From an uncultured Halomicronema sp. (lineage in GTDB: Bacteria; Cyanobacteriota; Cyanobacteriia; Phormidesmidales; Phormidesmidaceae), in the NCBI GenBank assembly GCA_937899725.1, contig CALCCA010000177.1, positions 1 to 55,333 on the forward strand: DNA of 55,333 nt, in the 5' to 3' direction. Of this stretch, positions 26,807-51,789 are shown piece by piece. Position 1 is the first letter of the stretch. Each line of letters opens with the position of its first letter. The position numbers and the translations under genes are program-made. Below the pieces are notes generated by a model, which made no database searches, was not told where the DNA came from, and saw nothing but the letters and a program-made list of their open reading frames with translations.

Positions 26807-28027
26807 TCAAGGGGGGAGTTCTCCGATCGCACGAGCGACCATCTGCTGAAATCGGTAGACCGGCTGTTCTAACTCGGGAGAAAAGCAGCCGCCATCGAAC
26901 CGGGGTGAGTTGCGGCCCGCCTGCAGGCGCTCGATCATGGCGATGTCTTCGTCGTTGGTATCGCGCCAGAGATCGATGGGTAGGTTGCGCAGTGCTTGGT
27001 TCTCGGGCGTCATGGCCTCATCTCCCATGAAGTAAAAGGCCAGGCGCTCTTGCGTTTGAGTGGGACTCAGGGGATTGACGGTAAACGCCAAAAAGTAGTC
27101 AGGGTGAACGCCCAGCATGAGGTTGGGAAACACGGTGATGTATTCGGCGACGGTGGCTTTTTGGTGAGCGGCCAAATCGGGCAGGCAGGGCAGCGATCGC
27201 CCCTCAATCTCACCACTTTTGTAGAGCAGGCTGCCCTGACCCACATGAACATCGCCGACCTCAAAGGCAAAGTGGTCTTCCATGCGAGAGCAACTGTTCA
27301 AGGCGGGATGCACCCAGCTCAAGTGATAGCTTTCTGAAAAGTTTTCGACGGCCAGCTTCCAGTTGGCGTTGCACTGCAGCGAGACTTCGCGAGGCTCATG
27401 GCGCAGCAGGCTCAGATCGTACATCGACCAGCGATCGCGCACTGGCTGCAAATACTCTGCCAGGGGCGGCGCATCACCTGACAAATTGACGAAGATTAGG
27501 TCGAGCCACTGATCACAACGAATGGGCTGCAGGCCGCGCTTGTCGCGATCAAAACCTTCGTAGGAATCTTTGTAGTAGCCGCCAAAATGGGGCGTATTTT
27601 TCAGGCTGCCGTCGAGCTTGTAAGTCCAAGAGTGATAGGGGCAGCGCAAGTGTGCCTGCACGTGGCAGGGCTGCTCGACCAACTGCAGGCCGCGATGGCT
27701 ACAAATATTGTGAAAGGCTCCCAGCTGACCCGCGCGATCGCGCACCAGCACGATAGGCATCCCGGCCACATCCGTCGGATACACATCGCCGGGATGCGGT
27801 AGGTCTGACGCCAACCCCACACAGACCCAGTAGCGGCTAAAGATCGCTTGTCGCTCTTGCTCTAGGTGCTGAGCACTCGTATACGCTTCACCCGGCAACC
27901 CCGGCTGACGATAATCATCGAGGTGGATAACCGCCGATTCTGATCCCGTATTCACCTCCTGATAGCTGCTATAAGGCTCAACCAAGGTCAGCTCAGGGGC
28001 AGGGGCAACAACTTTTTCCTGGGTCAT
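26807..28027 (-). CDS. gbcA: Rieske oxygenase, glycine betaine demethylase (GbcA-like)
   Basis: The oxygenase of a two-component Rieske system, 406 residues. The [2Fe-2S] ligands are Cys109/His111 (ICSHRGL) and Cys129/His132 (CPYHSW). The mononuclear iron site shows the motif ENFSESYHLSWVHP, typical of the choline monooxygenase/glycine betaine demethylase branch. Such enzymes turn glycine betaine into dimethylglycine plus formaldehyde. The ATG at 28027 follows GAGG. Context (BCCT transporter divergent, dimethylglycine dehydrogenase downstream) favours glycine betaine, but choline or carnitine oxygenation is possible. The ferredoxin reductase partner (GbcB) is absent from the window, so a host reductase or ferredoxin must supply electrons. 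Confidence 0.8.
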   Translation of the reverse strand: MTQEKVVAPAPELTLVEPYSSYQEVNTGSESAVIHLDDYRQPGLPGEAYTSAQHLEQERQAIFSRYWVCVGLASDLPHPGDVYPTDVAGMPIVLVRDRAGQLGAFHNICSHRGLQLVEQPCHVQAHLRCPYHSWTYKLDGSLKNTPHFGGYYKDSYEGFDRDKRGLQPIRCDQWLDLIFVNLSGDAPPLAEYLQPVRDRWSMYDLSLLRHEPREVSLQCNANWKLAVENFSESYHLSWVHPALNSCSRMEDHFAFEVGDVHVGQGSLLYKSGEIEGRSLPCLPDLAAHQKATVAEYITVFPNLMLGVHPDYFLAFTVNPLSPTQTQERLAFYFMGDEAMTPENQALRNLPIDLWRDTNDEDIAMIERLQAGRNSPRFDGGCFSPELEQPVYRFQQMVARAIGELPP

Positions 28028-28111
28028 ACTCTGCCTCTGTGGCACTTGCACGAATTTTATCGGGGCACTTCACCTGTAACCAAAGACCTGTTGCCGACGC
28101 ACCGGGCAACT

Positions 28112-28145: not shown

Positions 28146-28561
28146 TCATTACAAGTGCTTCAAACATGTCATCACAAGTGATAGAAGAGACCATAAAGGC
28201 GCAAAAACTCTTTTTATGTTCTCTGTTTTACAGTTTCAAAACTTTTTTGTAGAAATTTTCTGAACAGGAAAAGTCCTCTCTGCAAAGGCTATTCAAGGTC
28301 TGAGTTGATAGTTTAAGAGGCTGCAGCCGCTATAATTCTCTGTCAAAAATCAAGATTCCAAGACTTGTCGCGACAATGGTATCGACAATGACAGTCTTTT
28401 AAGATAGCGCGGCTTAAATTCATTTTCGATAGAGTTTCTGGACTGCTTGCCGCAGCTGGGAGAGTGGTTCCTTGCTGAAGAAAAGAACGTTTGCGAGCTG
28501 AGATATTTTGAATGCTGCCTCAGCTAAGCCCACACAACCCTATTACGGGGTGTTGTGATTT

Positions 28562-37550: not shown

Positions 37551-38660
37551 ATGGCGGATAAGGAGCAATTAGCTTCGCTCTGGAAGAGAGTACAGGTATG
37601 GAATCAGTGGAGAAGAGATAATCCAGATGAGGCAATCGACCTCCGCAGTGCTAACCTCAGCGGTGCTAACCTCAACTATGCGGATCTCAGCAGTGCCAAC
37701 CTCCACTGTGCTGACCTCAACCGTACCGACCTTAGCGATGCCAACCTCAACTATGCGGATCTCAGCAGTGCCAACCTCCACCTTGCCAAGTTCAGGGATG
37801 CCAAGATCAGCGGTGCCAACCTCAACCGTGCCGACCTCAGCGGTGCCGACCTTAACGATGCCGATCTCAGCGGTGCCGACCTCAGCAATGCCCTGCTCGG
37901 CGGTACTGACCTCCGCAGTGCCGACCTTAGCGATGCCGACCTCAGCGGTACCGACCTCAGCGGTGCCAACCTCAGCGGTGCCGACCTCAACAATGCCCTA
38001 CTCGGTGATGCCCTACTCGGCGAGACGTTATTCGCTGACGTTGATCTGAGTCGTGTTCAAGGACTGACGAAATGCCATTATCTCGGGCCTAGCACCCTTG
38101 ATCATCGAACGTTATCCCGCTCGGGTCAGCTGCCCGAATCATTCCTGCGGGGCGTGGGCTTACCCGATACCTTCATTGACTACATCCCCTCACTGTTTAA
38201 TCAGCCCCTCCAGTTCTATTCCTGCTTTATCAGCTACTCCCACATGGACGAGGCGTTTGCCAAACGACTACACGCCGACCTGCAAGACAAGGGGGTGCGC
38301 TGCTGGTATGCCCCCGAAGACTTGCCCATTGGCGAAAAAATTCGCGTCGGCATTGACCAAGCCATTCGCAAGCATGACAAGTTGCTGCTCATCCTCTCGG
38401 AGCACTCCGTCAATAGTCAGTGGGTCGAAAGCGAAATGGAAGCGGCGCTAGAGAAAGAGCGAGAGAGCCACAAGCTGGTGCTGTTTCCCGTCCGCATTGA
38501 TGACACCGTGATGCAAAACCGAGACGGGTGGCCGCGCGTGGTCAGAAACACTCGCAATATCGGCAACTTCTGCAACTGGAAAGACTATGACGCCTACCAG
38601 CAGGTGTTTGAGCGCTTAGTCAGAGACTTGAAGACGTCGTTGGCTGAGAGGGGGGATTAG
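37551..38660 (+). CDS. Pentapeptide-repeat protein with C-terminal TIR domain
   Basis: A 369-residue protein. Residues 28-165 are pentapeptide repeats of the A(D/N)LSx type, forming a right-handed quadrilateral helix. A linker leads to a TIR domain (about 222-365) starting [20 protein letters not shown]. The [12 protein letters not shown] segment carries a Glu in the position of the catalytic Glu of NAD-cleaving TIR domains. GGAGG precedes the ATG. It ends five bases before the convergent pentapeptide pseudogene. TIR domains with repeat scaffolds can be NADases in defence or signalling adaptors; which one applies is not known here. Confidence 0.85.
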
Positions 38661-38665
38661 GTGTT

Positions 38666-39358
38666 TTAGTCTTGCTGAGGGTTGCTGGCTGCTTCAATGT
38701 CCTCAAGCGACAATCCCTGCGGTAATTTGGCACCGTCAAGCTTAGCTCCCTTCAGAGTGTGCGCCTCAACTGTGGCCCCAGTGAGGTCAGCCTTAAAGAA
38801 GTTGGCCTTGCTGAGGTGGGCGCTGCTGAGGTTGGCCCCGCTGAAGTTGACAAAGCGGAGGTCGGCATAGTTGAGGTCGGCATAGCTGAGGTCGGCATAG
38901 CTGAGGCTGGCCCCCGTGAGATAGGCGTTGTGGAGACTGGCATAGCTGAGGTTGGTATAGCTGAGGTCAGCATGGCTGAGGTCGGCCTCGCTGAGGTCGA
39001 CCCCGCTGAAGTTGACAAAGCGGAGGTTGGTATAACCGAGGTCGACCCCGCTGAGGTCAGCATCGCTGAGGTCAGCCTTGTCAAGGTTGGCCTCGATGAG
39101 TTTGGCATCGTTGAGTAAGGCTCTGCTGAGGTAGGCATGGCTGAGGTCGACCCCGCTGAGGTCGAGCTTGCTGAGGTTGGCCCGAAAGAAGTTAGCCTTG
39201 CTGAGATCAGCCCCGCTGAGGTCGAGCTTCGCTTTGCTGAGCACCTCAGCCTCGATCAAAAACTGAATCACACTGGCTTTCCGGGCTCCATCTCCTTTAA
39301 ATCGCCGCAGAGTAGACAGGGTTCTGGCGCGAATTACATCAACCGATGCGGCAAGCAA
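38666..39358 (-). pseudogene. 3' part of an interrupted pentapeptide-repeat gene
   Basis: A 230-codon frame. It opens with the family's conserved helical segment (SVDVIRARTLSTLRRF; KASVIQFLIEAEVLS), followed by about 25 pentapeptide repeats (ADLSx). The only start in frame is a TTG at 39358, and homologous sequence continues upstream of it to about 39424. Together with the frame at 39519-39953 it was once a single gene: removing 103 bases (39425-39525 plus a duplicated GC) joins both frames exactly, giving a 394-residue protein. It may still be expressed as a fragment. Confidence 0.7.
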
Positions 39359-39953: not shown

Positions 39954-40000
39954 GATCGCCGTTGTTCAACGTTGAGATTAGCCACGTCCTGAGCGCCCTA

Positions 40001-40040
40001 AAAACAACAAACCCCTAGTACTTTAAAAGACCAGGGGTTT
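40001..40040 (-). terminator. Rho-independent terminator of the CHAT operon
   Basis: Read on the minus strand, AAACCCCTGGTCTTTTAAAG pairs with the following TACTAGGGGTTT (core arms 40033-40040 and 40009-40016), and a T-rich GTTGTTTTTA follows. It lies about 190 bases after the stop of the TPS-CHAT gene. The rest of the gap 39954-40229 has no supported gene. Confidence 0.65.
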
Positions 40041-40229
40041 AAGGGTGGAGCTAGAACAATATTACCTAGCTTCCCGCTACCGCCAGGGCCCGAGCTGCCA
40101 TAAACCACACACAGCACCTCCTCAGCGCCATAGAGGGGCAGCGGTGTAGCGAAAGCGCTAATCGTGGTTAAACGAAAGGGCCTCATAATCGGGGCTCCCT
40201 GATCTTTTGAAGTCAACCGCCAGTGATGT

Positions 40230-43200
40230 TTATGGGGCGCTGCCGACCTGCACAAAGGCCGCCCACAGGGCCGGATCGTCGGGATAGGTTTCCAATGCGG
40301 AGAGCATCGCCTCGCGCAGGGCCTGGGGCGTATTGCCCTGTTTCAGGCGCTCGGTGTGAAAGTCGATCAGCAAGTCGGCGGTTTGCTGATCGGGCACTTG
40401 CCAGAGAGACACCACCACCTGAGGCACCCCGGCGGCCATGAACGATCGCGATAGACCAATCACCCCATCGCCGGTAATGCGGCCCCGACCCGTGTCGCAG
40501 GCACTCAAAATCGCCAAACTGGCCTGCAGCGGCTGCTCTAGAATTTCGGCAGCGGTGAGGAAGCCATCGTTCTGGGCATCGGGAGCCAGCGCCAGCGCCC
40601 CCTGCAGCGGCTGTGTGCTGTTGAATTCGCCGTGGGTGGCCAGGTGAATGATATCGGCCTCCGCCAGGGCGGCTTTGACCTCTGCTTCGGTGGCGTCGCC
40701 GCGTAACAACGGCGTGGCCGAGAGCAGATCCGCCACGGTGGCAGCCTCTGTTTCGGCGTTGGGTAGGGGTACAAAGCTGCCGGGCATGGGACTGGGGTTG
40801 CCCACGACAAGGGCGTTCGGGGCGGCTGCGTTGGCAGGCGCGGCGCGGTTGCTCGTCAGCTCCAGCACCTGAATCGACGGCGTGATCGCCACGGTGTGCT
40901 GCTCAATCAAATAGGTACCCTGCTCGTCTTGCAGGGCGGCAAACGGCACGAGAAAGAGATGTTCTTGCGGGACGAAGATGACGAGATCGTTGGGGTCAGT
41001 GGGCAACAGTTCCGCGATGGGGGCGATGAGCAAATCATGGAGCTGCTGCAGGGGCGGCTGGGCGATCGCCCCCGTAGGCTCGACCCGCGAGAGTTCACCG
41101 ACTGGCAGGGTCGGATCGGGCAGGACGAAGTCAGGATGACTCACGGTGACGGTCTGCCCATCGGGCGACAGACTGACCACTTCGTAGGGGGCAATGTCTG
41201 GCAGGTCACCTGCTCGTCTCACAAAATCGCCGGGTTGCAGGGGGCGATCGCCCACGCTGGGCACCACCCGCAGGCCCCGGTTCGTCGCCACGAGGGACGG
41301 ATGACGACCGGTGAGCGCAGTGCGGGTCTCAACCACGAGATCGGCGACAGTGCTGGCCGAGACCGCAGTGGGCAGACTGACTGAGCGAAACTGCACCGTG
41401 CCATCCGGCGACACCACCCAAATATAGAGCTGGGCATCTCTCGGCTCGACCGGATTTTGTACCGATGCGGCATGGGGTGGCTCCGCTACCTGGTCGCGAA
41501 TGATGGCATATTCCACCAGGGTGGCGTTTTGAGTGGCGGCGATTTGCTGCAGTCGGGCCAGACTGGGAGGCGACACTGGCCCAGCGGCACTGGCTGGCCC
41601 TTGGCCACGGGCGAGCAGTTCCACAAAGGCGCGGGCACGACTGCGTTCTGATACTTCGAGGGCGATGGTCAGTTTGTCTTGATTGACCAGCGCTTCTTGC
41701 AAGTTGTTGTAGGCGGCCAGCTGAGTTTCAAAAATGGAGATTTTGAAGGCATCATTAGTCCCCAAACCGGCGCGCAGCGATTCCCAAAGTTCGATCGCAG
41801 TGAAAAGGGTCTGTTCCGCTTCGGTCAGTCGGTTTAGATACAGCAGCGCGTTCCCCACATTCGTCAGGGCGACCCCCTCGCCGAGCCGGGAGCCGAGCTG
41901 CTGAGCGATCGTCCGCGCCTCCTGGCTATAGCGATAGGCCTGGTCGTAATTTTGCTGGTAGGCGTAGACCGTGCTGAGCCCGAGCAAAATCTGGGCGGCC
42001 TCTAGGGGCTCTGCCAACGTCGTCGCCAGGGCCAGCCCTTGCTCATGGTGGGCGATCGCCTCCGCAAAGCGCCCCTGAATAGCTCGCGTTGAGCCCAGAT
42101 TGCCGTAAGCCTGCATTTCGCCGTAGCGATCGCCCGCACCCCGCGCAATATCGAGGCTGGTGAGTTGATGCTGGGCGGCTTGTTCGTAGTCCTTTTCGGC
42201 AAAGTAGGCGTTGCCGAGATTGCGATAGGTCAGTGCCTTCCACTGCGGCGCGGTCTCAATGGGCAGGCGGCTGAGGCTGCGCTCATAGAAGTCAATGGCG
42301 GTGGCGTAATCGCCGAGGGCTGCATAGGTGGCCCCTAGCCCTCCCAGCGCAATCCCTTCTTGAGTCGCATCCCTCAGGGCGATCGCCTGATCGAGCTGCT
42401 GTTGATGCAAGTCCAACGCGGTGAGATAGTCGCCAATGACAAAGTGCGAAATCGCCAAGTTGTTGAGGGAATAGGCAATCCAGCGAGTATCGCCTTGGGC
42501 GGTAGCCGTCGCCAGGTTAGCTTCGTAGCAGTCAATTAGTGCTTCATAAAGGGCCTCGGAGCGATCGCGGGCGGCGGTGTTCTCGACACTTTCAACCGTG
42601 GCCTGGCAGTTGCGCAGGCCGGTATTGGCCTCGGAGTCGGCTGCTGATTCGGCTGCCGGTGAGGCGATGCCGTCTTCCTCAATGGAGTCAGTGGTGGCAT
42701 CACTGGAGGTCGTTTCTCCGTCGGTGGTCGGGGTGCCGCTATCCGTTTCTGGGGTGGGCGTGGAGGGCTCGGTTTCGTCGGTCAACAGCGAACTGCCAGC
42801 CTCGGGCTCCCCTTCAACGGCGGAGCCGTTGTCACCGGCGGCGGGTGCGGGCAAGTCGTCCTCACCGCCGCCTTCGTCGCCGCCCTCCCCGGTTTCGCCC
42901 TCGTCGTCCGGTTCCTGAAGCTGACTCAGATTGACGCCCCCGCCCGGTGGCGGCAGCGCTTGGTTTTCCCGTGGCTCTGTAGCAATGTCCAAACTGGGCA
43001 CGTTGGCAGCGGGAGCATTCGCGGCGCTCGGGGGAAAGATGCCATCCTCACCGGTACTGATCGCGATCGCGGCCCCAATCAACAAGCTGGGTTCGGGCAG
43101 CACCATGCCGAGCACGCTGAGTTCCTCTAGCTGCGGCGACTGGGCCAGCGACAGGCTCTGTATAACCGTTTGCTCCGTTGGCAGGAGATCAGGCTGGGAC

Positions 43201-45719
43201 GGAGGAGCCGCTCCCAAGGTGGGATCAAGCGTCGTCACGTCGGGCAACTCGGGGGAATCAGGTGTCTCCGAGGCCGCGATCGTGACGGTGATGGCGACTG
43301 GGGCAGAATTGGCGACGCCATCTTGAGCCCGCAGGGTAAAGGCCGTAATCGTGCCGCTGGTATCAGCGGGGGGGATGAATTGCAGGGTATCGGTGGGGGC
43401 GATCGCATCACCGGCCTGCACGGGCACGCCATTTCTCAGCAGCGTCCCTGACTGAATCGAGGCGATTTCCAGCATGGTGATGTCGCTGTTGGCGTCAGCA
43501 ATCGTCGGGTTGAGGTCAGCCACGGTAAAGTCCAGCGGCTGATCGACTGCTGTGGCCAGTTGCTGTGAGGCAGACAGCGTCGGTGGGGCGTTGACTGAGG
43601 TGATGGTGACAGCGGGCGAGGGATTGTCAGTACCGCCAGTGGGTTGGACATCGAAGGTACCGCTGGTGAGCACGCTATCAGCGGCGATCGCGCCCGCTGT
43701 GCCATTCACGGCGGCATTGCCAATCGTCAAGGCCGCGTTCGTCGGGCCGCCATCATGCTGAATGGTTACCGTGCCGGGGTTGGCCCCTTGAGCGTTAATG
43801 GTGATGCCAGCGCTCAAGCCTTGCACGGTGCCGTTGGCCACAATATTGACGTCGCCCCCCGGATTGACGCTGGTAGTGGTGGCCGTGATCGCATCAAAGG
43901 TAATGTCGCCGCTGGACATCAGACTCACCGCGCCGGGAGCTACCGCGCTGGTATCAATCGCGCCCAGCTGTAACCCCGCCCCCATCACTGTTACCGGGCC
44001 GCCCTGGGTTTGCAGGGTCGTGCCGCCACCGGCAATCACCCCGCCGCTGCCGCTGTTATCAGCATCCGCCTGCAGCGTGATCGCGCCGAAATTGGTGGTG
44101 AGATTGCCGTTGAGAAAAATGTTGTTGTTGGCGATCGCGGTCAAGCCGACGCCGGTGGTGGTGGTGACATCGGTACTAAAGGTAATGTCATTGGTGGCTT
44201 GCAGCACCACATTGGCCAACGCGGCGTTGAGCGCGGTGACGTCAATGCGCGTCGTGTTGTTGGCCCCCAGGTCAGGATCACCAAACTCATCCACTGCCGT
44301 GAGTGCAGCGGTATCGGCTCCGGCAGCCACAATCTCAATGTTGGTGGGATCTAGCAGCAGCGTGCCGGTGCGGCCCGACGCTGCGAAGGCATTCACCGTG
44401 CCCGAAAACTGGAGTGACTGGGCCGCCGAGACTTCGACCAAGCCGCCACTGCCGCTGCCATTGCCCTGCACGCTGGCCTGGCCGAGAAATCGCGTCGTGT
44501 TGGCCCAGACGATTATCGTGCCGCCATCGCCTGCCTGCAGCGCGTCCGCCGCGAGCTGAGACTCGGCATCGACGGTCGTAACCTGCGCCCGAGGCAACGA
44601 CCCCTGCCCCTGAAAGTCGCCGCCAATGCGGATGTCGCCGCCGCCGCTGGCCCCCGAGGCAATGACGTCCGCCGCGAGGAGCGAGACCTGCTCGCCTAAC
44701 AAATAGATTTGCCCCCCTTCGCTCCCCGCTACCGTGATTTCTCCTGACGCAATCACGCTGCCCAGTTCGACCGGAGCCGCCGCCGTGGCAGACTCCAGGC
44801 GAACGGTGCCGTCCGCCGCCTGAACAACGGTCAGATCCGCAGCCGCGAGGCCGCTACCGGTAAGCAATTCGGGGAGGGCCAGCGAATTCAGCTGTAACTG
44901 TCCGGTGGCAGTCAGGGTTGGCGGAATTTCCAGACTGAGCAGCTGATTTTCCTGACTGATGCGCACTAAATTTTCACCGGGAATTGCCGCTAGCGTAATG
45001 GTGCCTTCAGGGGCGGTGATGCTGCCCAGATTGATGACTTCGCCGCCCAACAGCGTGATGGATTCGCCAGCGTCTACGGTCAGATCGCCCAGGTTGAGCA
45101 CCGTGCCGGATGAGTCACCGGTGAAGGCGAAACCATTAGGGGTGCCGGTCAGCGCTTCATAGGCGGTAGGATTTTGCACATCTAACCAGGTGTCACCGAA
45201 GCCGATCTGGTAGGCTGTCGTGGCCGTAAAGGAGCCAGTCAGATCGATCGCGCCATGGGGGCCAAAAATGACGCCCGCCGGATTGATCAGATACAGATTG
45301 GCACTACTGCCACTAACCTGCAGCAGCCCGTTAATGATCGAGGCGTTCCCGCCATTGACGCTGCCGAGAATGTTTTGAATCTCCGGCGAGGCGATAAAGT
45401 TAGCGACCTGCTCCGCCGTCAGGCCAAACTCCTGAAAGCTGTGGAAGAGGTTGGCCCCATCGCCGGAAAGCTGGCCGCCCGTGATGTCAAGTTGGCTGCC
45501 GTCGGGCGTCACCACGGTGCCGGTGCCGTCCGCATTGGGAATCACGGCCTGAGCGAGTCGAGGCGACGAGAACTGCGGCTGCCGCCCCGTCGGGGGAGAC
45601 AGCAGCGGCTGCACCGAGACGGGTGGCCGGGGGGCGTCCATGCGGGCAGCGAGCGCGACTGACGCGAGCAGCAAGGGCGGCGGGGCCGGGGGCGCGATCG
45701 CACAAAAGATACATAACAT
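40230..45719 (-). CDS. Giant TPS-type exoprotein with TPR and CHAT protease domains
   Basis: An 1,829-residue protein. After a hydrophobic, alanine/proline-rich leader comes a two-partner-secretion (filamentous haemagglutinin N-terminal) domain, about residues 60-330 (NADGTGTVVTPDGSQLD; NLYLINPAGVIFGPHGAIDL). Beta-repeat stretches follow, then a cadherin-like segment (about 720-830), an acidic Gly/Glu linker (about 930-990), TPR repeats (about 1040-1350) and a C-terminal CHAT caspase-like domain with His1696 (LATHGEF) and Cys1741 (SACDTGRG). It is thus an apparently exported protease tethered to a TPS domain. No TpsB porin gene is in the window. It is the last gene of the sigma-DUF1822-CHASE2 run, 15 bases after its neighbour. 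Confidence 0.87.
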   Translation of the reverse strand: MLCIFCAIAPPAPPPLLLASVALAARMDAPRPPVSVQPLLSPPTGRQPQFSSPRLAQAVIPNADGTGTVVTPDGSQLDITGGQLSGDGANLFHSFQEFGLTAEQVANFIASPEIQNILGSVNGGNASIINGLLQVSGSSANLYLINPAGVIFGPHGAIDLTGSFTATTAYQIGFGDTWLDVQNPTAYEALTGTPNGFAFTGDSSGTVLNLGDLTVDAGESITLLGGEVINLGSITAPEGTITLAAIPGENLVRISQENQLLSLEIPPTLTATGQLQLNSLALPELLTGSGLAAADLTVVQAADGTVRLESATAAAPVELGSVIASGEITVAGSEGGQIYLLGEQVSLLAADVIASGASGGGDIRIGGDFQGQGSLPRAQVTTVDAESQLAADALQAGDGGTIIVWANTTRFLGQASVQGNGSGSGGLVEVSAAQSLQFSGTVNAFAASGRTGTLLLDPTNIEIVAAGADTAALTAVDEFGDPDLGANNTTRIDVTALNAALANVVLQATNDITFSTDVTTTTGVGLTAIANNNIFLNGNLTTNFGAITLQADADNSGSGGVIAGGGTTLQTQGGPVTVMGAGLQLGAIDTSAVAPGAVSLMSSGDITFDAITATTTSVNPGGDVNIVANGTVQGLSAGITINAQGANPGTVTIQHDGGPTNAALTIGNAAVNGTAGAIAADSVLTSGTFDVQPTGGTDNPSPAVTITSVNAPPTLSASQQLATAVDQPLDFTVADLNPTIADANSDITMLEIASIQSGTLLRNGVPVQAGDAIAPTDTLQFIPPADTSGTITAFTLRAQDGVANSAPVAITVTIAASETPDSPELPDVTTLDPTLGAAPPSQPDLLPTEQTVIQSLSLAQSPQLEELSVLGMVLPEPSLLIGAAIAISTGEDGIFPPSAANAPAANVPSLDIATEPRENQALPPPGGGVNLSQLQEPDDEGETGEGGDEGGGEDDLPAPAAGDNGSAVEGEPEAGSSLLTDETEPSTPTPETDSGTPTTDGETTSSDATTDSIEEDGIASPAAESAADSEANTGLRNCQATVESVENTAARDRSEALYEALIDCYEANLATATAQGDTRWIAYSLNNLAISHFVIGDYLTALDLHQQQLDQAIALRDATQEGIALGGLGATYAALGDYATAIDFYERSLSRLPIETAPQWKALTYRNLGNAYFAEKDYEQAAQHQLTSLDIARGAGDRYGEMQAYGNLGSTRAIQGRFAEAIAHHEQGLALATTLAEPLEAAQILLGLSTVYAYQQNYDQAYRYSQEARTIAQQLGSRLGEGVALTNVGNALLYLNRLTEAEQTLFTAIELWESLRAGLGTNDAFKISIFETQLAAYNNLQEALVNQDKLTIALEVSERSRARAFVELLARGQGPASAAGPVSPPSLARLQQIAATQNATLVEYAIIRDQVAEPPHAASVQNPVEPRDAQLYIWVVSPDGTVQFRSVSLPTAVSASTVADLVVETRTALTGRHPSLVATNRGLRVVPSVGDRPLQPGDFVRRAGDLPDIAPYEVVSLSPDGQTVTVSHPDFVLPDPTLPVGELSRVEPTGAIAQPPLQQLHDLLIAPIAELLPTDPNDLVIFVPQEHLFLVPFAALQDEQGTYLIEQHTVAITPSIQVLELTSNRAAPANAAAPNALVVGNPSPMPGSFVPLPNAETEAATVADLLSATPLLRGDATEAEVKAALAEADIIHLATHGEFNSTQPLQGALALAPDAQNDGFLTAAEILEQPLQASLAILSACDTGRGRITGDGVIGLSRSFMAAGVPQVVVSLWQVPDQQTADLLIDFHTERLKQGNTPQALREAMLSALETYPDDPALWAAFVQVGSAP

Positions 45720-45734
45720 CGGGTGGGGGCTCCA

Positions 45735-46418
45735 TTAGTTTTCGACCGGGAAATCGCAGATTACGGCGTCACTCGAACCGTCTAGCGCCGCGCTTTGGGC
45801 CACACAGAGGGTCGCCGGGCGCGCACGGACATAGGCCCACTCATTCTCTAGATAGAGCGCCATCTGACTGGAGCCAGCCTGAAACTCAATCCGCGCCACT
45901 GCCGCCGAAAACACGTCTGTGTAACCGCGATAAACCTCGTGGCACAGGCCCCAGCGGCCACATTCTAAAAGCATCAGCGGGCCGTAATTGTCGTCAAACG
46001 CTGGCGCAACGTAAACCGTGCGATAGGTTTTGTGCCAAGCGGCGATCGCCCGCTGTGACTGGGGCGCATAGCCAAACAGCACCGCGGGAAAAGCGGCCAT
46101 CGATAGGAGAACGCCCCCCGCGACCGCGATCGCCAGCAGCATAACAGCGCGTCGCGCGACCGGTTGCCACTGGGGTTTGAGTACCCTGAGCAGCAGCAGC
46201 CCGACTAACCCGCCGCCCAATACCGGCAGCGCTAACCCGACGCTCGTACTGATTAGCAGTGCCGGGAGTCCCAGGTGGCTGTAGCCCAGTGCCAACCAGT
46301 GCCAGCCCGGTCCCTGACCACCAGTGAAGGGGGCATACCAGAGCCAGCCGATCGCCGCGCCCCCGGCCCAGAGGGCCAGCAGTATCAGCAGGGGCGGTTT
46401 TGACAGGAACGGGGGCAT
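45735..46418 (-). CDS. Membrane protein of the CHAT operon, unknown function
   Basis: A 227-residue protein with three or four hydrophobic helices in its first 125 residues (LLILLALWAGGAAIGWLWY; ALLISTSVGLALPVLGGGLVGLLLL; AVMLLAIAVAGGVLLSMAAF). An outward or lumenal C-terminal domain follows with four cysteines (ECGRWGLCHEV; ATLCVAQ; VICDF) that could form disulfides. No family recognised. It lies between the DUF928 gene and the giant TPS-CHAT gene on the same strand, so it is probably part of that system. Confidence 0.7.
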   Translation of the reverse strand: MPPFLSKPPLLILLALWAGGAAIGWLWYAPFTGGQGPGWHWLALGYSHLGLPALLISTSVGLALPVLGGGLVGLLLLRVLKPQWQPVARRAVMLLAIAVAGGVLLSMAAFPAVLFGYAPQSQRAIAAWHKTYRTVYVAPAFDDNYGPLMLLECGRWGLCHEVYRGYTDVFSAAVARIEFQAGSSQMALYLENEWAYVRARPATLCVAQSAALDGSSDAVICDFPVEN

Positions 46419-46514
46419 CGCTTTTCTCGCTATGGATACAGAGCCCGATAGATCGCCAGGGTCTAGGCTGGGTGGGGCGATGGGGGATATTCCGCACCCT
46501 GGGCTCTAAATGCT

Positions 46515-47240
46515 TTAATCGGGCTGACAGCAGTCGGTGAGGGGCTGCTCGACGACATCATTGAGCTGGACGAGATCGTGCTCTAGGAGGCTGGCCCAGT
46601 TGAGGAAAGCGGCTTCCGATCGGGGATTTTGCAAGCGCTGCTCGGCGAGTGCGGTTAAGGTGTCGTACCAAAAGCCGTGACTGGCCAGCAGGGCGATGCG
46701 TTCGTCGGTGTCCGCAGTGGCGAGCTGCTGCGCCAGTTCGTCGGTGGGCGATCGCCGCACCACGATGCCTGTGGTAGCTGGGCCATCGCCACTCTCGTCC
46801 GGACAATCGACTGACAGGGTCCAGCGGTAGGGTACGTCGGGGGCCAGCTCCGGGGCCGCTTCGGGCCCGGGCAATCGACTGATGCCCACGTCCGGAATGG
46901 CGCTGTAGGTCGCGGTGTACAAGATTTCGTCGCTGCCTTCGGGGGTTAGCGTCAAGGCCACCGAGCGGCCAGCCTCCGAGAGAAACACCCAGAACGTCGG
47001 CTGAGCCTGCAGCGTTTCACCCCAGTGGGTTTGGGTCGGTTCGAGCGCGATAATGCCACAGCCCCGACTGCCCGCATCGCGCACCGTACTGCTGCGTCCT
47101 GGTGCGCCCCGATTGGGCGGATTGAAGGGCACGGCTAGGGGCGCTACATCCGCGATCGCCACCAGGGCCAGTAAGCTCCAAAGCATCGCTGTCAACCCAC
47201 CCAGGCGTGTTTGACGAGGCTGTGTAAATAAGGATTTCAT
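46515..47240 (-). CDS. DUF928 family protein
   Basis: A 241-residue cyanobacterial protein of the DUF928 family. It has an N-terminal signal or anchor helix (MLWSLLALVAIADVAPLAV), then a beta-rich domain: LEPTQTHWGETLQAQPTFWVFL, a YTATYSAIPDVGISRLPG stretch and LSVDCPDESGDGPATTGIVV, followed by helices. The ATG at 47240 overlaps the stop of the CHASE2-CHAT gene as ATGA. Upstream extension is possible but would lie inside that gene. DUF928 proteins often accompany CHASE2 and TPS-CHAT genes; their role is not known. Confidence 0.82.
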   Translation of the reverse strand: MKSLFTQPRQTRLGGLTAMLWSLLALVAIADVAPLAVPFNPPNRGAPGRSSTVRDAGSRGCGIIALEPTQTHWGETLQAQPTFWVFLSEAGRSVALTLTPEGSDEILYTATYSAIPDVGISRLPGPEAAPELAPDVPYRWTLSVDCPDESGDGPATTGIVVRRSPTDELAQQLATADTDERIALLASHGFWYDTLTALAEQRLQNPRSEAAFLNWASLLEHDLVQLNDVVEQPLTDCCQPD

Positions 47241-49582
47241 GAGGGCAATTTTTTCCTGAGTTGAGAGTGATCGAGCCCGTGAGCGCTGGCAACAGTAACG
47301 ACCGTGGCCAAAGTGGAACCGATCGCGGCTGGCACTAGAGGCACCCACCAGCTTAGATTCAGCAGTCCCCACGCAATTCCGTACAGCAGCAGGACGCTAC
47401 CCCCGGCGGCGATCGCGGCCACACTCAGACGCCGCCCGCGCCAGCCCACCAAACCCCCTAAGCCACACCAGGCCGTGATCCACACTAGCTCTACCCCAGC
47501 GGGCCAGACGCGAATGGGCGAACGTCCGTCTAAGGCCGCGGTCAGCAAATGATTGACCATTTGCGCGTGCAGCAAGACCCCCTCAGTTTGCTGGCGGGGC
47601 CATTGGTTAGCCCCGGCGGGCGTCAGAAAAAAGTCCGTCGGATTCGAGACCGGAGCCGACATGCCGATGAGCACGATATAGTTCTCCAGACTTTCCAGGT
47701 CGATGTTTTGTGTCAGGAGGTCGGCTACAGAAATTTGTTGAACAAATGTTTCGGTAGCCGTGTAGTTAAGCCACACCTGAAACCCCCAGTGATCGAGCTG
47801 GTGATAAGGGCCAGAGTGGCTTTGCAGCGGCGCAAACTGAGCGCGGCCCAGCTGCAATCGTTCGTCAGGTAAGATTTGCGGCTCAATGCCTTGCGCATCG
47901 AGATATTGGATGGCCAGCTGCGCACTCAGCGAAAACTCTGTGGCGCAGGGGTCATCGATCTCGGGCGTCATAAATAATAAGTGGCGGCGCATGACGCCGT
48001 CATGGTCTTCGACCACGTTGCTAAAGCCCAAGCGCTCGGTCGGCAGACTCGGCGGTGGGGCGATGCCATCGCCCTGGCCTAAGCGCACACTGCACAGCCC
48101 GACGAGATTGTTTTGCGCCGCCAGCAGCGGTGCTAATGGACTGTTTTCCTCCGGCCGATCGCGAAAAATATCTAGCCCAATCAGCCGGGGCTCGTAGGGC
48201 TGCAGGCGCTCGATTACCTGGGCCAACACGGCATCCGGCAGGGGATAGCCATAGCGGTTGATGTCAGCTTCCGTGGCCTCAACCACCAGCAGTCGTTCGG
48301 GGGTGGCGCGGGGCAAACGCTGCTGCAGGAGGCGATCGTAGGCACGGAGTTCCGCCGGTTGCAGCCCCCCCAGCGATCGCACCGCCAAGATCAGCACCGA
48401 CGCAGCGACGCTGGCCACCAGCGCAATGTGTCCCCGTCGGCGATCGCTCACCAGCGGCGCGGCGGGGGAGGTGGGTGGGGAGGCCAGCGGAGACGACTGG
48501 GTATCCCCCTGCAGCTGAGGCCAGGTGGGCGGCGGGTCGGGCACCGTTTGCACCAGCACCGGTAGCCAACTCGCACAGGGAAAGTCGCCTTCTAAGCCCT
48601 GCAGCCGCTCGCGGGCCTGCCGGAGAGCCAGTGGCAAAGGTTGGCCAGCGGCATAGGCCGGTAGCAAGTAGGTCAAAAACAGCTGCGCAATGCGATCGGG
48701 CACCGGCTGGCGCATGACGATCAGCTGCGGCAGGTTCACCTGCTCTAGCGCGGGCACTAACCCCAAGCCGTCACAGGAGTTAAAAATTGCCAGCTGCAGG
48801 CCGTTGGCGATCGCTCGCCGGAGCCCGTAGCGCAGCTCCTCCAGAGTCAGGCTGTCGTGGGGGTTGATGAAAATGCGCCCGGTGGCTGCAGCGCTCTCGC
48901 TGTGCCCCGCAAAAAATAGGACGTGCCAGGGCCGCTCCCACAGCTGGTCGTTGATATCCTGTCGCTGGGGCTCAACTAAAAAGGTGACGTGGGCCTGGGG
49001 CAGCGCGGTCAACAGGGCGCGATCGCGGCTGACGTCAATGCCCGCGCTATGGCCCAAGATAGCGAGCACGTTGACTTGGGTCGAGTTCCCCGGAGCGATC
49101 GCTGGTCGCTTAAACTGCGCCGCGCTGAGAGCGACTTCCGCCTGGGGATAGTGCTCTAAAAACTCCCACAGGTGCCAGGGTAGCTGCTGCAGATCGGGGT
49201 TCGCGGTGCGCACCAACACCCGCACGATGTCGTCGGGCTGTAGCTCTTCGCGCAGCCGGCGGTCAATCGGGCGAAAGGCGGCGGCTGAGAGCCACTGGTT
49301 AAACTGTTGCTGTAGCTTCTGCGCCGCCTGCTGACAGGCAGCAACCCGCTGAATTGAGCCGACATACACAATCTCTTTGGGGCGAATGCGCGTCGGTGTA
49401 TCGAGCTGCCGGTAGCACTGCTGCCACGCCTGCAGCTGCTGTTGCAGGACGGGGTCGGTCGGTAACGTGCCCGTCACCACCGCCGCCGGGCGATCGCCCT
49501 CGGCACCCACTTCCGCCGTCACGCGAAATCCCTGGTGCTCCAGGTTGCCATCGAGAATAAGCGTAACCAACTGACAGCGCAT
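47237..49582 (-). CDS. CHAT protease fused to CHASE2 sensor domain
   Basis: A 781-residue membrane protein. Residues 90-360 are a CHAT caspase-like domain with His227 (FFAGHSES) and Cys270 (FNSCDGLG), so both catalytic residues are present. A Pro/Ser linker and a transmembrane helix (about 390-410) lead to a CHASE2 extracytoplasmic sensor domain (about 410-690). Three C-terminal helices follow (VELVWITAWCGLGGLVGW; VAAIAAGGSVLLLYGIAW; VPLVPAAIGSTLATVVTVA). The protein can therefore sense a signal outside and gate a protease inside. It overlaps the DUF928 gene by four bases and follows the DUF1822 gene by 69 bases. Confidence 0.88.
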   Translation of the reverse strand: MRCQLVTLILDGNLEHQGFRVTAEVGAEGDRPAAVVTGTLPTDPVLQQQLQAWQQCYRQLDTPTRIRPKEIVYVGSIQRVAACQQAAQKLQQQFNQWLSAAAFRPIDRRLREELQPDDIVRVLVRTANPDLQQLPWHLWEFLEHYPQAEVALSAAQFKRPAIAPGNSTQVNVLAILGHSAGIDVSRDRALLTALPQAHVTFLVEPQRQDINDQLWERPWHVLFFAGHSESAAATGRIFINPHDSLTLEELRYGLRRAIANGLQLAIFNSCDGLGLVPALEQVNLPQLIVMRQPVPDRIAQLFLTYLLPAYAAGQPLPLALRQARERLQGLEGDFPCASWLPVLVQTVPDPPPTWPQLQGDTQSSPLASPPTSPAAPLVSDRRRGHIALVASVAASVLILAVRSLGGLQPAELRAYDRLLQQRLPRATPERLLVVEATEADINRYGYPLPDAVLAQVIERLQPYEPRLIGLDIFRDRPEENSPLAPLLAAQNNLVGLCSVRLGQGDGIAPPPSLPTERLGFSNVVEDHDGVMRRHLLFMTPEIDDPCATEFSLSAQLAIQYLDAQGIEPQILPDERLQLGRAQFAPLQSHSGPYHQLDHWGFQVWLNYTATETFVQQISVADLLTQNIDLESLENYIVLIGMSAPVSNPTDFFLTPAGANQWPRQQTEGVLLHAQMVNHLLTAALDGRSPIRVWPAGVELVWITAWCGLGGLVGWRGRRLSVAAIAAGGSVLLLYGIAWGLLNLSWWVPLVPAAIGSTLATVVTVASAHGLDHSQLRKKLPS

Positions 49583-49651
49583 GGGGTCGATACCGGCTTC
49601 AGATCAGGACAAATAGACTCTTCAAGACAGTCGTCGCAGGGGTAGCTACCG

Positions 49652-50638
49652 CTACACTTCAAACCGTTCGGTATAGGTGCGATCGCCCAGCACCACTTGC
49701 ACGCTAAACTGCTCCGCGATCGCGGCGACAAACTTGAGCTGAATCGCTTCCGTATCGCGGGCCTCCGCCTGCATCACCGCGACGTCAGCAGCATCCAAAA
49801 TCGCCAGTCGCAGGGCCGTCGGCAGGCGAGTCTGGCCCACCGCCGGACTCAGCTGCACCCAGATTTCTAGCTCATCTGGCCCTTGAGGCAGCAGTCCCAC
49901 CAGCAGCGTCACGGTGACGGCGGCGGCCCCAGTGCCGAGCACGATGGACTTAGACTGGCCAACTTGAGGCACCGGTTGCGGTGAGCTATCGGCAGCATCC
50001 GTCCCTCCTGTTTCAGCTGCCGCGCCACTGCGCCAGGCAAAGGTTGGTGACGGTGCGGTGAGTTCGGCCACCGTGTCGGCGACCGCTTGCCAACCCGTCT
50101 CGACTGTTTGCTGAAGCCAACGACTCAGGCGCACCGGCATCGCTTCAGTCGCCTGCTGGGCTAAAAAACTGCCCAACATTTCCGGAGACTGCAGATCTGA
50201 CAGTGGAATAGAAGTGACGTCTCCGGTGGGAACGGGGCGGGTGGCGGTAAAACCGAGGAGCGTGGCCTGACGCAACGAAGCGTCGAGGTAAATGGCGAGA
50301 TAGGCAATCCGATCGCTGCTCACAGCAGCCGGAATGGCGATCGCGCTCGCCCCCGGTAAGACTGGCCGACATTCCAGCCGTCCGACCCCGCTCACCATTA
50401 CATCGGCCACATCCAGCAGCATTTGCTGCGCCGGATCGTGGCTGTAGCTTGCGCTCCAATCAATGTCATAGCCCCGCCTCTCCAGATAGGTCGCCCCTGC
50501 ATAGGCTGCCAGGGTATTGAGGTAGACGCGTTTTTGCACCGCAGGCACCGAGTGGCGGCGTTGAAAGTCTTGGGCGCGACGGTGGGCCGTTAGGGCCAGC
50601 GGCAGCGATGCCGCCGATAAGTTGCTCAAGTCGTTCAT
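49652..50638 (-). CDS. DUF1822 family protein
   Basis: A 328-residue cytoplasmic protein of a family confined mainly to cyanobacteria. The first 130 residues are helical (AHRRAQDFQRRHSVPAVQKRVYLNTLAAYA), typical of DUF1822, and the C-terminal 120 residues form a beta-rich domain (VTVTLLVGLLPQGPDELEIWVQL; IQLKFVAAIAEQFSVQVVLGDRTYTERFEV). Family members regularly follow a sigma-like gene and precede CHAT-CHASE2 genes. They are suspected adaptors or substrates of the protease, but no function is established. Confidence 0.8.
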   Translation of the reverse strand: MNDLSNLSAASLPLALTAHRRAQDFQRRHSVPAVQKRVYLNTLAAYAGATYLERRGYDIDWSASYSHDPAQQMLLDVADVMVSGVGRLECRPVLPGASAIAIPAAVSSDRIAYLAIYLDASLRQATLLGFTATRPVPTGDVTSIPLSDLQSPEMLGSFLAQQATEAMPVRLSRWLQQTVETGWQAVADTVAELTAPSPTFAWRSGAAAETGGTDAADSSPQPVPQVGQSKSIVLGTGAAAVTVTLLVGLLPQGPDELEIWVQLSPAVGQTRLPTALRLAILDAADVAVMQAEARDTEAIQLKFVAAIAEQFSVQVVLGDRTYTERFEV

Positions 50639-50671
50639 GGTTGAGGTCTCACGGGGGAACGGGGCCGCACC

Positions 50672-51574
50672 TTATAGCAGGCGCTGAAACTGGGGGGCAA
50701 ACTTATCGCAGCAGCGTTGAAAAAAGCTGCTGAGGGTGGGGACTTTGATCGCATACTCCTGGGCAATGTCTTCCCAACTGCGTTCGCCAAAGCGAGCCAG
50801 GGCGATCGCCTGAAAACTGGCCTCTGGGTGATGGCGAATGTGCGTGGTTCGAAACTGGTCGTCGGGGTCAGTGGCAATGTAGTCGCGCACGGTGTGCGCC
50901 AGCGAGGGCGTCTCTGGCGACGGCGCGGCGATCGCCTCCAAATCATTCAAATTGGGTAGTTCTTGAGTCTCCTGCTCGTTAAACTCACGACGGCAGTCAA
51001 GGATCTGGCGATCAAGGCGAAAGTTGACCCAGTTCATAAATTTTTGCGCCGTGCCGCGCTCTGGGTCATAGTTCTCAATTTTGCGGCAGACGTAGGTTAG
51101 CGTTTGGTTCAGCGCCTCCTCATAAAGCAGGTCATAAAACGCGGGCGTAAACTTACTGCGATGGGGATGCGCCAGCCGCCCAGAACGCCGAATCGCCTCG
51201 ATTAACTGGGTTAGAGCGTGCTGTCTTTGAGGACTGCGAGCCGGATGCCGTTGGGCTTCTAACGCTAGCTGCTTAAGCTGATCATCCGTGAGAGCTGCTT
51301 GGAGAGCAGTTGCCTGTACGACGGTACTCCACTCCGAAACTGCGCCGTGATCGCCCTGGTATTGCTCAACTGCTGCCGTTGCGGCTACCAGCATCTGCTG
51401 CTGCAAGCGATCGCGCAGCGCTTGATAAACCGGATTGTCCGGAGCCTCTGGGCCGGGTCGGCCCAATCGCTGCGATCGCATCAGCACCGCAACAATGGCC
51501 GCCAGCGCCGCCGCCCGATTTGCCGGGGTAGCCTGTTGCGCTTGGTGCAGCAGTGGCGTCAGTTCTAAATCCAT
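50672..51574 (-). CDS. Sigma-70-like factor heading the CHAT operon
   Basis: A 300-residue protein with features of a divergent ECF-like sigma factor. A long N-terminal helical extension (1-130) precedes a region 2-like segment (YDLLYEEALNQTLTYVCRKI; NYDPERGTAQKFMNWVNFRLDRQILDCRRE) and a C-terminal region 4-like helix-turn-helix (SWEDIAQEYAIKVPTLSSFF). The region 3 linker is missing, as in ECF types. ATG at 51574 was preferred over GTG at 51580. It is first of six same-strand genes. No anti-sigma gene is recognised beside it, so the CHAT protease or DUF1822 protein may control it. Confidence 0.72.
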   Translation of the reverse strand: MDLELTPLLHQAQQATPANRAAALAAIVAVLMRSQRLGRPGPEAPDNPVYQALRDRLQQQMLVAATAAVEQYQGDHGAVSEWSTVVQATALQAALTDDQLKQLALEAQRHPARSPQRQHALTQLIEAIRRSGRLAHPHRSKFTPAFYDLLYEEALNQTLTYVCRKIENYDPERGTAQKFMNWVNFRLDRQILDCRREFNEQETQELPNLNDLEAIAAPSPETPSLAHTVRDYIATDPDDQFRTTHIRHHPEASFQAIALARFGERSWEDIAQEYAIKVPTLSSFFQRCCDKFAPQFQRLL

Positions 51575-51789
51575 AAGCACTACTTACCGCAGCCGCCAGT
51601 CACGGATGACCCGCGATGACGTTTTCACAATTTACGGAGTCGGCCCTGCAGCTCAGCGAATTCCCTCAAATCATATCGGACTAACGCCGAATGCCCCATC
51701 TCAGGGCTCTGACTCCCGGCAACGCAGCACGACTGGCGGCCTGGGCCGCCGGTGAGAACAGTCGTGACGCGAGCCCGCGATCGCCGCCG

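Follow-up and report, generated by a model that had tools for sequence, protein, structure and literature searches.

We analysed a 55,333-nucleotide stretch of DNA (hereafter the window; contig CALCCA010000177.1 of assembly GCA_937899725.1, 7.0 Mb in 216 contigs) from an uncultured cyanobacterium of the genus Halomicronema, which carries a minus-strand operon of six open reading frames (ORFs). In order, these encode: a sigma-like factor, a DUF1822 protein, a CHAT domain fused to a CHASE2 domain (hereafter the receptor), a DUF928 protein, a membrane protein with four cysteines, and a TPS-TPR-CHAT exoprotein. The gaps between them are 33, 69, -4, 96 and 15 bases, the negative value being an ATGA overlap of the receptor and DUF928 genes. 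About 190 bases behind the last stop lies an intrinsic terminator (39998-40042, minus strand) with a fold of -18.1 kcal/mol (z -4.8), which 0 of 200 shuffles equalled, and with a T-rich run after its stem; a simple terminator scan restricted to loops of 3-8 did not list this hairpin. The tight spacing, single overlap and closing terminator are as a first-pass annotation of this DNA had described them. The same gene order recurs in other genomes, so that the arrangement is more than chance: the six-gene operon is real and conserved.

The first gene (50672-51580, minus strand) codes for a 302-residue protein, residues 97-302 of which are predicted to comprise sigma2 and sigma4. When this part of its AlphaFold2 (AF2) model (mean predicted local distance difference test score, pLDDT, 85.5) is compared with known structures by VIA-align, sigma factors or sigma chains fill 50 of the 50 listed rows (three by title), and 13 of 997 chains reach Z >= 8. 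The matches include E. coli sigmaE (1or7; Z 10.4, root-mean-square deviation 12.3 over 151 residues, with the domains at another angle), SigK (Z 9.3, 2.5 A over 82) and SigW (Z 9.2). Helical folds readily reach Z values of this order; the fold call is accordingly made from the uniformity of the list and not from the height of Z. Foldseek alone is weak (best sigma match E 0.58), Pfam gives no match at E 0.01, and the score against the NCBIfam sigma model TIGR02937 is 17.2 bits, below its cut-off of 42.9. Among 29 aligned rows, 11 match TIGR02937 at E 0.01, and all 18 NCBIfam families matched are sigma factors; Pfam detects sigma region 2 in four rows and region 4 in three, with two unrelated families in three row matches. 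Since the window protein scores below the curated cut-off, we file it only as a divergent, ECF-like (extracytoplasmic function) factor that is sigma-like by fold; at the level of the predicted fold this supports what the first-pass annotation had proposed. The first 97 residues form a further, degenerate sigma2 copy (self blastp 8.6e-6; hhalign 96.6%), a duplication also present in the loci L105 and L248-L250 and visible by profile only in L251 and L252.

The second gene (49652-50638, minus strand) encodes a 328-residue DUF1822 protein (Pfam 5e-51), our candidate for a sigma inhibitor. Its AF2 model (pLDDT 82) consists of an alpha/beta N-domain (about 1-175), a linker (187-220, pLDDT <50) and a beta-sandwich C-domain (about 226-327), which has Ig-like matches (best Z 7.7) and within which lies the sole hydrophobic segment of the protein, as judged by hydropathy. 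The model has no Foldseek match at E 0.001, and Csx30 is not among the listed fold or profile matches, the listings being filled by matches to the C-domain, with the N-domain uncovered. The linker is disordered and indel-rich, with two invariant tryptophans (174 and 183) just N-terminal of it. At residue 203 of the protein, inside the linker (codon 50030-50032, minus strand), 80 nonredundant DUF1822 proteins have 78 arginines and 2 lysines; by entropy this column ranks fifth (tied) of 305 well-filled columns, with the next-best linker column at 1.41 bits. The preceding residue is Phe in 54 of the 80 and the following one Ser, Asn or Gly in 64, and this [F/L/W]-R-[S/N/G] pattern is how a cleavage site would look, making Arg203 a candidate cut site for a protease.

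The sigma gene adjoins DUF1822 in 29 of 30 loci (the exception is L042), and 19 of them are without a CHAT of the receptor type in the 1.5 kb fetched on each side. For this reason DUF1822 is a likelier protease target than the sigma factor, which the first-pass annotation had pictured as perhaps being released directly. The pairing with sigma, together with the analogy to Csx30 discussed below, makes DUF1822 a likely sigma inhibitor. In sigma/anti-sigma pairs, too, the sigma gene typically comes first and the gene of its regulator next. Of 244 genomes sampled across the phylum, 164 give a DUF1822 match, 155 of them over the cut-off; in many cases this is a weak, single match in a small genome. 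In one family, many of the roughly 2-Mb genomes have one weak match each (1e-5 to 1e-13 for the most part), which represents a lone and distant form of DUF1822.

The third gene (47237-49582, minus strand) encodes the 781-residue receptor, a putative protease with an N-terminal CHAT domain (Pfam 9e-12) and a CHASE2 domain (Pfam 1.4e-58). CHASE2 is flanked by hydrophobic segments, one at 383-407 and others between 718 and 767, and from this framing the CHAT domain should be cytoplasmic and CHASE2 outside. The predicted catalytic residues His227 (codon 48902-48904, minus strand) and Cys270 (codon 48773-48775, minus strand) are each conserved in 114 of 115 aligned rows, with 1 gap. Residue 187 is likewise acidic in 114 of the 115 (110 Asp, 4 Glu); caspase-clan proteases that cut after Arg have an acid in the S1 pocket, and for this reason we consider residue 187 a candidate S1 acid. 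A further conserved region of about 95 residues precedes the CHAT domain in a separate alignment of 11 rows. Library scans of the operon proteins with Pfam and NCBIfam brought up no EACC2 model (the N-terminal module to which we return below), and the receptor gives no match to the NCBIfam Csx29 model.

The DUF928 gene (46515-47240, minus strand; 241 residues from the ATG of the overlap; Pfam 5e-36) begins with a hydrophobic segment (residues 12-41), suggesting that its product is probably exported. DUF928 is a general neighbour of CHASE2: across 19 genomes, 84 of 129 DUF928 genes are at most 3 kb from a CHASE2 gene (1.7 expected), 75 of them on the same strand. This count excludes 5 of the original 134 DUF928 matches, which are weak or fragmentary, and 23 of the 173 for CHASE2, the majority of them unlisted. 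Of 101 DUF928 genes with no DUF1822 within 6 kb among the DUF1822 matches listed, 58 lie this close to CHASE2. PMC5587647 mentions one such array in Nostoc punctiforme, and an acid response of the DUF928 protein sll1891. The genome from which the window comes also has two CHASE2 proteins on other contigs (549 and 649 residues), each paired with DUF928, one pair divergent and one tandem, with no sigma or DUF1822 labelled nearby.

The fifth gene (45735-46418, minus strand) codes for a 227-residue protein with three or four hydrophobic segments and, as noticed in the first-pass annotation, four cysteines (153, 159, 205 and 221); its relatives are found only in two loci of the same genus. The last gene (40230-45719, minus strand) encodes an 1829-residue, probably secreted protein with a TPS secretion domain (Pfam 2.4e-38) and a CHAT domain (Pfam 3e-72), the predicted dyad of which, His1696/Cys1741, is kept in 51 of 51 rows for His and in 49 of 51, with 2 gaps, for Cys, the window being counted twice. 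Both CHAT domains of the operon thus retain His and Cys, as first annotated. The exoprotein starts with a hydrophobic stretch (1-21) that has no clear positively charged region; by eye, the signal peptide of its relative in L133 looks normal. No TpsB transporter is labelled beside the gene, and TpsB-like genes are present elsewhere in the source genome (L151, L153, L154 and the end of L049). Against the Csx29 model the exoprotein scores 23.9 bits, the cut-off being 300.

A lack of conserved linkage among these genes had been named beforehand as a refuting result, and linkage is in fact observed. A contig scan recovered at least 78 distinct loci containing 79 CHAT-CHASE2 genes, the named relatives being cyanobacteria. 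DUF928 lies directly behind the CHAT-CHASE2 gene in 66 of the 79 (a further 4 are cut by the contig end), DUF1822 directly before it in 61 (1 cut likewise), and sigma is in its expected place in 37. For the 45 genes that have 9 kb or more of flanking sequence on each side, the counts within 9.5 kb are: DUF928 44, DUF1822 37, sigma 29, TPS 20, another CHAT 18, and TPS or CHAT 28. DUF928 of L247 and L249 was missed by longest-ORF gene calling and recovered by tblastn.

The TPS link is tight in the window's own family. A TPS gene is directly behind the core in 5 of 11 loci fetched from it, two of the five in another genus. All six operon genes are found in G299, whereas in G468 the four-Cys gene is missing and the other five are present; G359, from another genus of the family, has the same five, and G471, of the genus of G359, has them with a shorter TPS-TPR frame. 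The 6.3-kb contig of G470 holds DUF1822, the receptor, DUF928, the four-Cys gene and the start of a TPS gene. The source genome, with 18 CHAT, 8 TPS and 5 DUF928 matches, carries a second copy of the core on another contig, in the order: a 409-residue sigma factor (Pfam sigma region 4, 1.5e-12), DUF1822, CHAT-CHASE2, DUF928, an 89-residue ORF and a TPS gene.

Some relatives share a promoter, AAGTTTTGTAAC-N15-GCGTAAAA, which stands before sigma genes and also before certain genes for TPS proteins, secreted proteases and EACC2-CHAT proteins. Among 43 nonredundant sigma genes, 8 have the pattern TTTGTAA[AC]-N14-16-[GC][CT][GA]TAAA upstream (12 of 58 in all), as do 2 of 1149 other genes, each divergent from a sigma gene; the pattern was read by word counts from these same upstreams, so that its Fisher value is not an independent test. 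With shifted spacers or shuffled, the pattern has 0 matches in these upstreams, and it recurs at the sigma gene of G066, outside the loci that yielded it. Gapped-motif expectation maximization on the 43 sigma upstreams was rejected as diluted by those without the motif (information content 13.2, against 9.7-10.4 for six random sets), and the exact pattern took its place.

A position weight matrix (PWM) was trained on 15 of 18 sites (two near copies and one odd site being dropped) and run over 2.04 Mb of loci. At >=20 bits it gives 27 sites, against 2 when reversed, 0-5 with shifted spacers and 3 with swapped boxes; these comprise 10 training sites, 6 near copies at sigma genes and 11 others. 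Among the latter, three stand before TPS genes or a TPS run: two sites, both alike, before TPS genes of L138 (113 bases), and one in L120 before a PEP-CTERM gene heading a TPS/TPR-CHAT run. Another, in L086, precedes a gene divergent from sigma, and seven are before unrelated, unknown or no genes. In L139, from a related Nostoc, the TPS gene has a site of 19.4 bits, spaced from it as in L138. Besides those at sigma genes, the training sites include: a subtilase gene of L120 (Pfam S8 5e-33), divergent from sigma; EACC2-CHAT genes of G022, G024 and G042 (there behind a 150-residue gene), the G024 protein carrying nSTAND1-WD40; and secreted trypsin genes of G022 (480 bases before the gene) and G024 (258 bases), the latter followed by genes for COP23 and TPR proteins.

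In the window, a candidate seen by eye with the right spacer, TTGTGAAAAC-N15-CCGTGACT, fails the PWM, and no promoter of the window's genus was found. The upstreams of the window and of L249 share, by eye, a GTCCGATATGATT stretch, possibly a housekeeping -10. In three other sigma upstreams (L250, L251 and L252), paired words like TTTTATGCAAA / TTTGCATAAAA are visible by eye and are perhaps an operator. The only strong PWM match in the window (28200-28260, minus strand; 25.1 bits) is about 160 bases ahead of the gene for a Rieske oxygenase (26807-28051) and may be a chance match in an AT-rich patch.

The core of sigma, DUF1822 and CHAT-CHASE2 is not new: it is an already predicted EACC2 system. 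The available part of Kaur et al. 2021 (eLife, PMC8195603) describes EACC2-caspase proteins, in which a constant N-terminal module and a caspase/CHAT domain are followed by CHASE2 or other variable C-termini, with an ECF sigma factor and DUF1822 in most of the neighbourhoods independent of TRADD-N; autoproteolysis and a sigma output are proposed there. The window operon shares with these a number of features: a CHAT domain with a His-Cys dyad, a C-terminal CHASE2 with transmembrane segments, and ECF sigma and DUF1822 neighbours. That account, so far as its available part goes, has nothing on DUF928, on partners of the TPS or TPR-CHAT kind, on a promoter or target genes, or on DUF1822 being an inhibitor or a substrate; it calls DUF1822 a TPR protein, whereas our model is an alpha/beta domain with a beta-sandwich. 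The main text of Kaur 2020 (PMC7159879) was found to contain no CHASE2, DUF1822 or sigma factor, and no other study of the sigma-DUF1822-CHAT-CHASE2 system came up in literature searches that covered few subscription journals and no preprints. As far as these searches show, the following are new: DUF928 as a CHASE2 partner, the TPS-TPR-CHAT wiring, the promoter and candidate targets in relatives, the candidate cut site and the duplicated sigma2.

Our preferred reading, to which we give a probability of about 0.45, is that the operon forms a transmembrane relay from an external signal via DUF928/CHASE2 to CHAT, to relief of DUF1822 and to sigma. An external cue would be bound by CHASE2, probably together with exported DUF928, as their linkage suggests, and would activate the cytoplasmic CHAT domain, with its conserved dyad, at the other end of the receptor. 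CHAT would then act on DUF1822, the likely sigma inhibitor, and cut it in the disordered linker, at Arg203 or close by; both this cut and the inhibition are inferred. The freed ECF-like sigma would, in part of the relatives, drive transcription of the operon to which it belongs and of genes for exported products, namely TPS exoproteins, secreted serine proteases and more CHAT proteins, as the promoter motif suggests. In the window's family, the TPS-TPR-CHAT exoprotein would be wired straight into the operon. The line sketched in the first-pass annotation, from an outside signal through a cytoplasmic CHAT to sigma, with a second, exported CHAT, fits this relay, other than in its choice of protease target.

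The relay may be likened to Craspase, with a membrane receptor replacing the RNA-guided effector. In the available part of PMC10028731, Csx29 cuts Csx30, an inhibitor of CASP-sigma; this system, like the window's, combines a CHAT protease, a two-domain partner with a flexible linker, and an ECF-like sigma, with a motif of its own that in the present case is seen in some relatives. They differ in that the window has a CHASE2 membrane receptor, not Cas7-11/crRNA, and in that the cut in Csx30 falls within a C-domain loop and not in the linker, where the candidate site of DUF1822 lies. The RseA-sigmaE and RsiW-SigW systems, named in the available part of PMC10028731, likewise join an envelope signal, inhibitor proteolysis and an ECF sigma, and the window sigma model matches both sigmaE and SigW. 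Here, in contrast, the receptor itself would be the protease, of a caspase-like clan and cytoplasmic, and the only hydrophobic segment of DUF1822 lies within its beta domain. HetF of Anabaena, a putative CHAT protease, shares a CHAT domain, a membrane segment and a cyanobacterial host; however, it has TPR, its published domain sketch (PMC8406250) is without CHASE2, and the match to the NCBIfam HetF model is 25.8 bits against a cut-off of 1200. A stronger version of the relay is rather unlikely: DUF1822 would represent an anti-sigma class of a new kind, gated by a caspase-like receptor that spans the membrane and cuts it at an invariant Arg. Cyanobacteria would thereby have a membrane-bound, non-CRISPR Craspase switch, with exported proteases and TPS exoproteins as output, including a second CHAT outside the cytoplasm.

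Several observations weigh against the relay. In a profile search of the PDB with the sigma protein no sigma chain was significant, and peptidyl-tRNA hydrolase (0.006) outscored the best sigma (E 0.22). Sigma stands two genes before CHAT-CHASE2 only in the said 37 of 79 (4 off the contig; 4 with another CHAT there), and TPS is near the core in only 3 of 19 loci from other genomes, which were covered for about 3 kb ahead of it and 13 kb past it (9 have another CHAT), against 20 of 45 named loci. The strict promoter pattern is missing from 35 of 43 nonredundant sigma upstreams; across 291 genomes it has 46 matches against 40 for a backward control, and of 21 places inspected, picked first for resemblance, 5 are at sigma, EACC2-CHAT or secreted-trypsin genes and 16 are at the end of a contig or fall within or ahead of unrelated genes. 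The best PWM site upstream of the window sigma gene scores 0.2 bits, which is no motif, and the exact pattern has no match in the source genome; the promoter therefore supports part of the family and not the window operon. Finally, Arg203 is kept in 19 of 19 DUF1822 proteins without an EACC2-type CHAT within the 1.5 kb fetched, as it is in 10 of 11 CHAT-paired ones (one frame is broken). Three genomes with a single unpaired DUF1822 each (G143, G054 and G078) hold no EACC2-type CHAT (best 41 bits). As Arg203 is kept where such a CHAT is missing, it has a role beyond the EACC2-type protease.

In 8 genomes without a DUF1822 match EACC2-type CHAT is also absent (best 35 bits), and the DUF1822-bearing G048 has strong EACC2-CHAT matches (245, 154 and 90 bits): in this sample of 12 chosen genomes, EACC2-CHAT goes with DUF1822 and not vice versa. 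Frames of about 520-570 residues, weakly like the receptor CHAT, occur in six genomes without strong EACC2-CHAT (G143, G078, G051, G103, G072 and G170) and are possibly another protease for sigma-DUF1822 pairs.

Two other explanations have to be weighed, neither of which we consider likely. One is the conflict or cell-death module envisaged by Kaur et al., in which an invader or stress cue would trigger EACC2-CHAT autoproteolysis and sigma would turn on immunity or suicide genes. Its prior prediction for EACC2 systems in the available part of the 2021 paper speaks for it, as do the motif sites before EACC2-CHAT genes, one of them carrying nSTAND1-WD40, and a TIR-pentapeptide gene adjoining the operon; against this, CHASE2 and DUF928 suggest an external cue, and several predicted targets are exported proteins. 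Within the operon PADLOC matches only the TPS-TPR-CHAT protein, through a TPR model and, weakly, through BovA, with none for the receptor, DUF1822 or sigma, so that the defence or cell-death role suggested in the first-pass annotation gained no backing there. The other explanation, similarly doubtful, makes DUF1822 a positive sigma adaptor, either a chaperone or an RNA polymerase bridge, with Arg203 as a docking residue and CHAT cutting something else. Retention of the Arg where no protease is nearby and the invariant Trp174 and Trp183 just ahead of the linker would suit docking; however, the Arg is flanked by mostly hydrophobic and Ser/Asn/Gly residues in a disordered, indel-rich linker, as at a cleavage site, and the gene order is that of sigma/anti-sigma pairs. 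That the TPS-TPR-CHAT and four-Cys genes are passengers behind the EACC2 core with no shared function is improbable: the four-Cys protein was found only in its own genus and a same-strand TPS or CHAT is two genes behind the receptor in only 9 of 79 (9 on the opposite strand, 10 off the contig), yet the same order is seen in two genera, motif sites precede TPS genes, both cores of the source genome adjoin a TPS gene, and 20 of 45 loci have a TPS gene within 9.5 kb, set against a chance of 3.7% per locus (218 TPS in 124 Mb of 19 genomes), a comparison that yields no fair probability as the loci are mutually related and not phylogenetically independent.

Two neighbourhoods elsewhere in the window are recorded as side observations. 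Just past the operon end, two genes for pentapeptide proteins converge: the one on the plus strand (37551-38660) encodes pentapeptide repeats followed by a C-terminal TIR domain (TIR_2 7e-25, weak ThsB_TIR), and the other is on the minus strand (38666-39358). Further away, at 11396-17840 (plus strand), a 1743-residue nSTAND1-WD40 protein is encoded, preceded by a 428-residue protein that has no Pfam match at 1e-5; in locus L199 an nSTAND1-WD40 part is fused to EACC2-CHAT.

The transmembrane relay would set a predicted 'conflict system' against a testable rival, namely surface signalling that controls exported proteins. DUF1822 and DUF928 are families without known function and, if the relay is true, both would gain a role; it would also provide a CHAT-to-sigma wiring outside CRISPR, together with the names of the genes that it controls.

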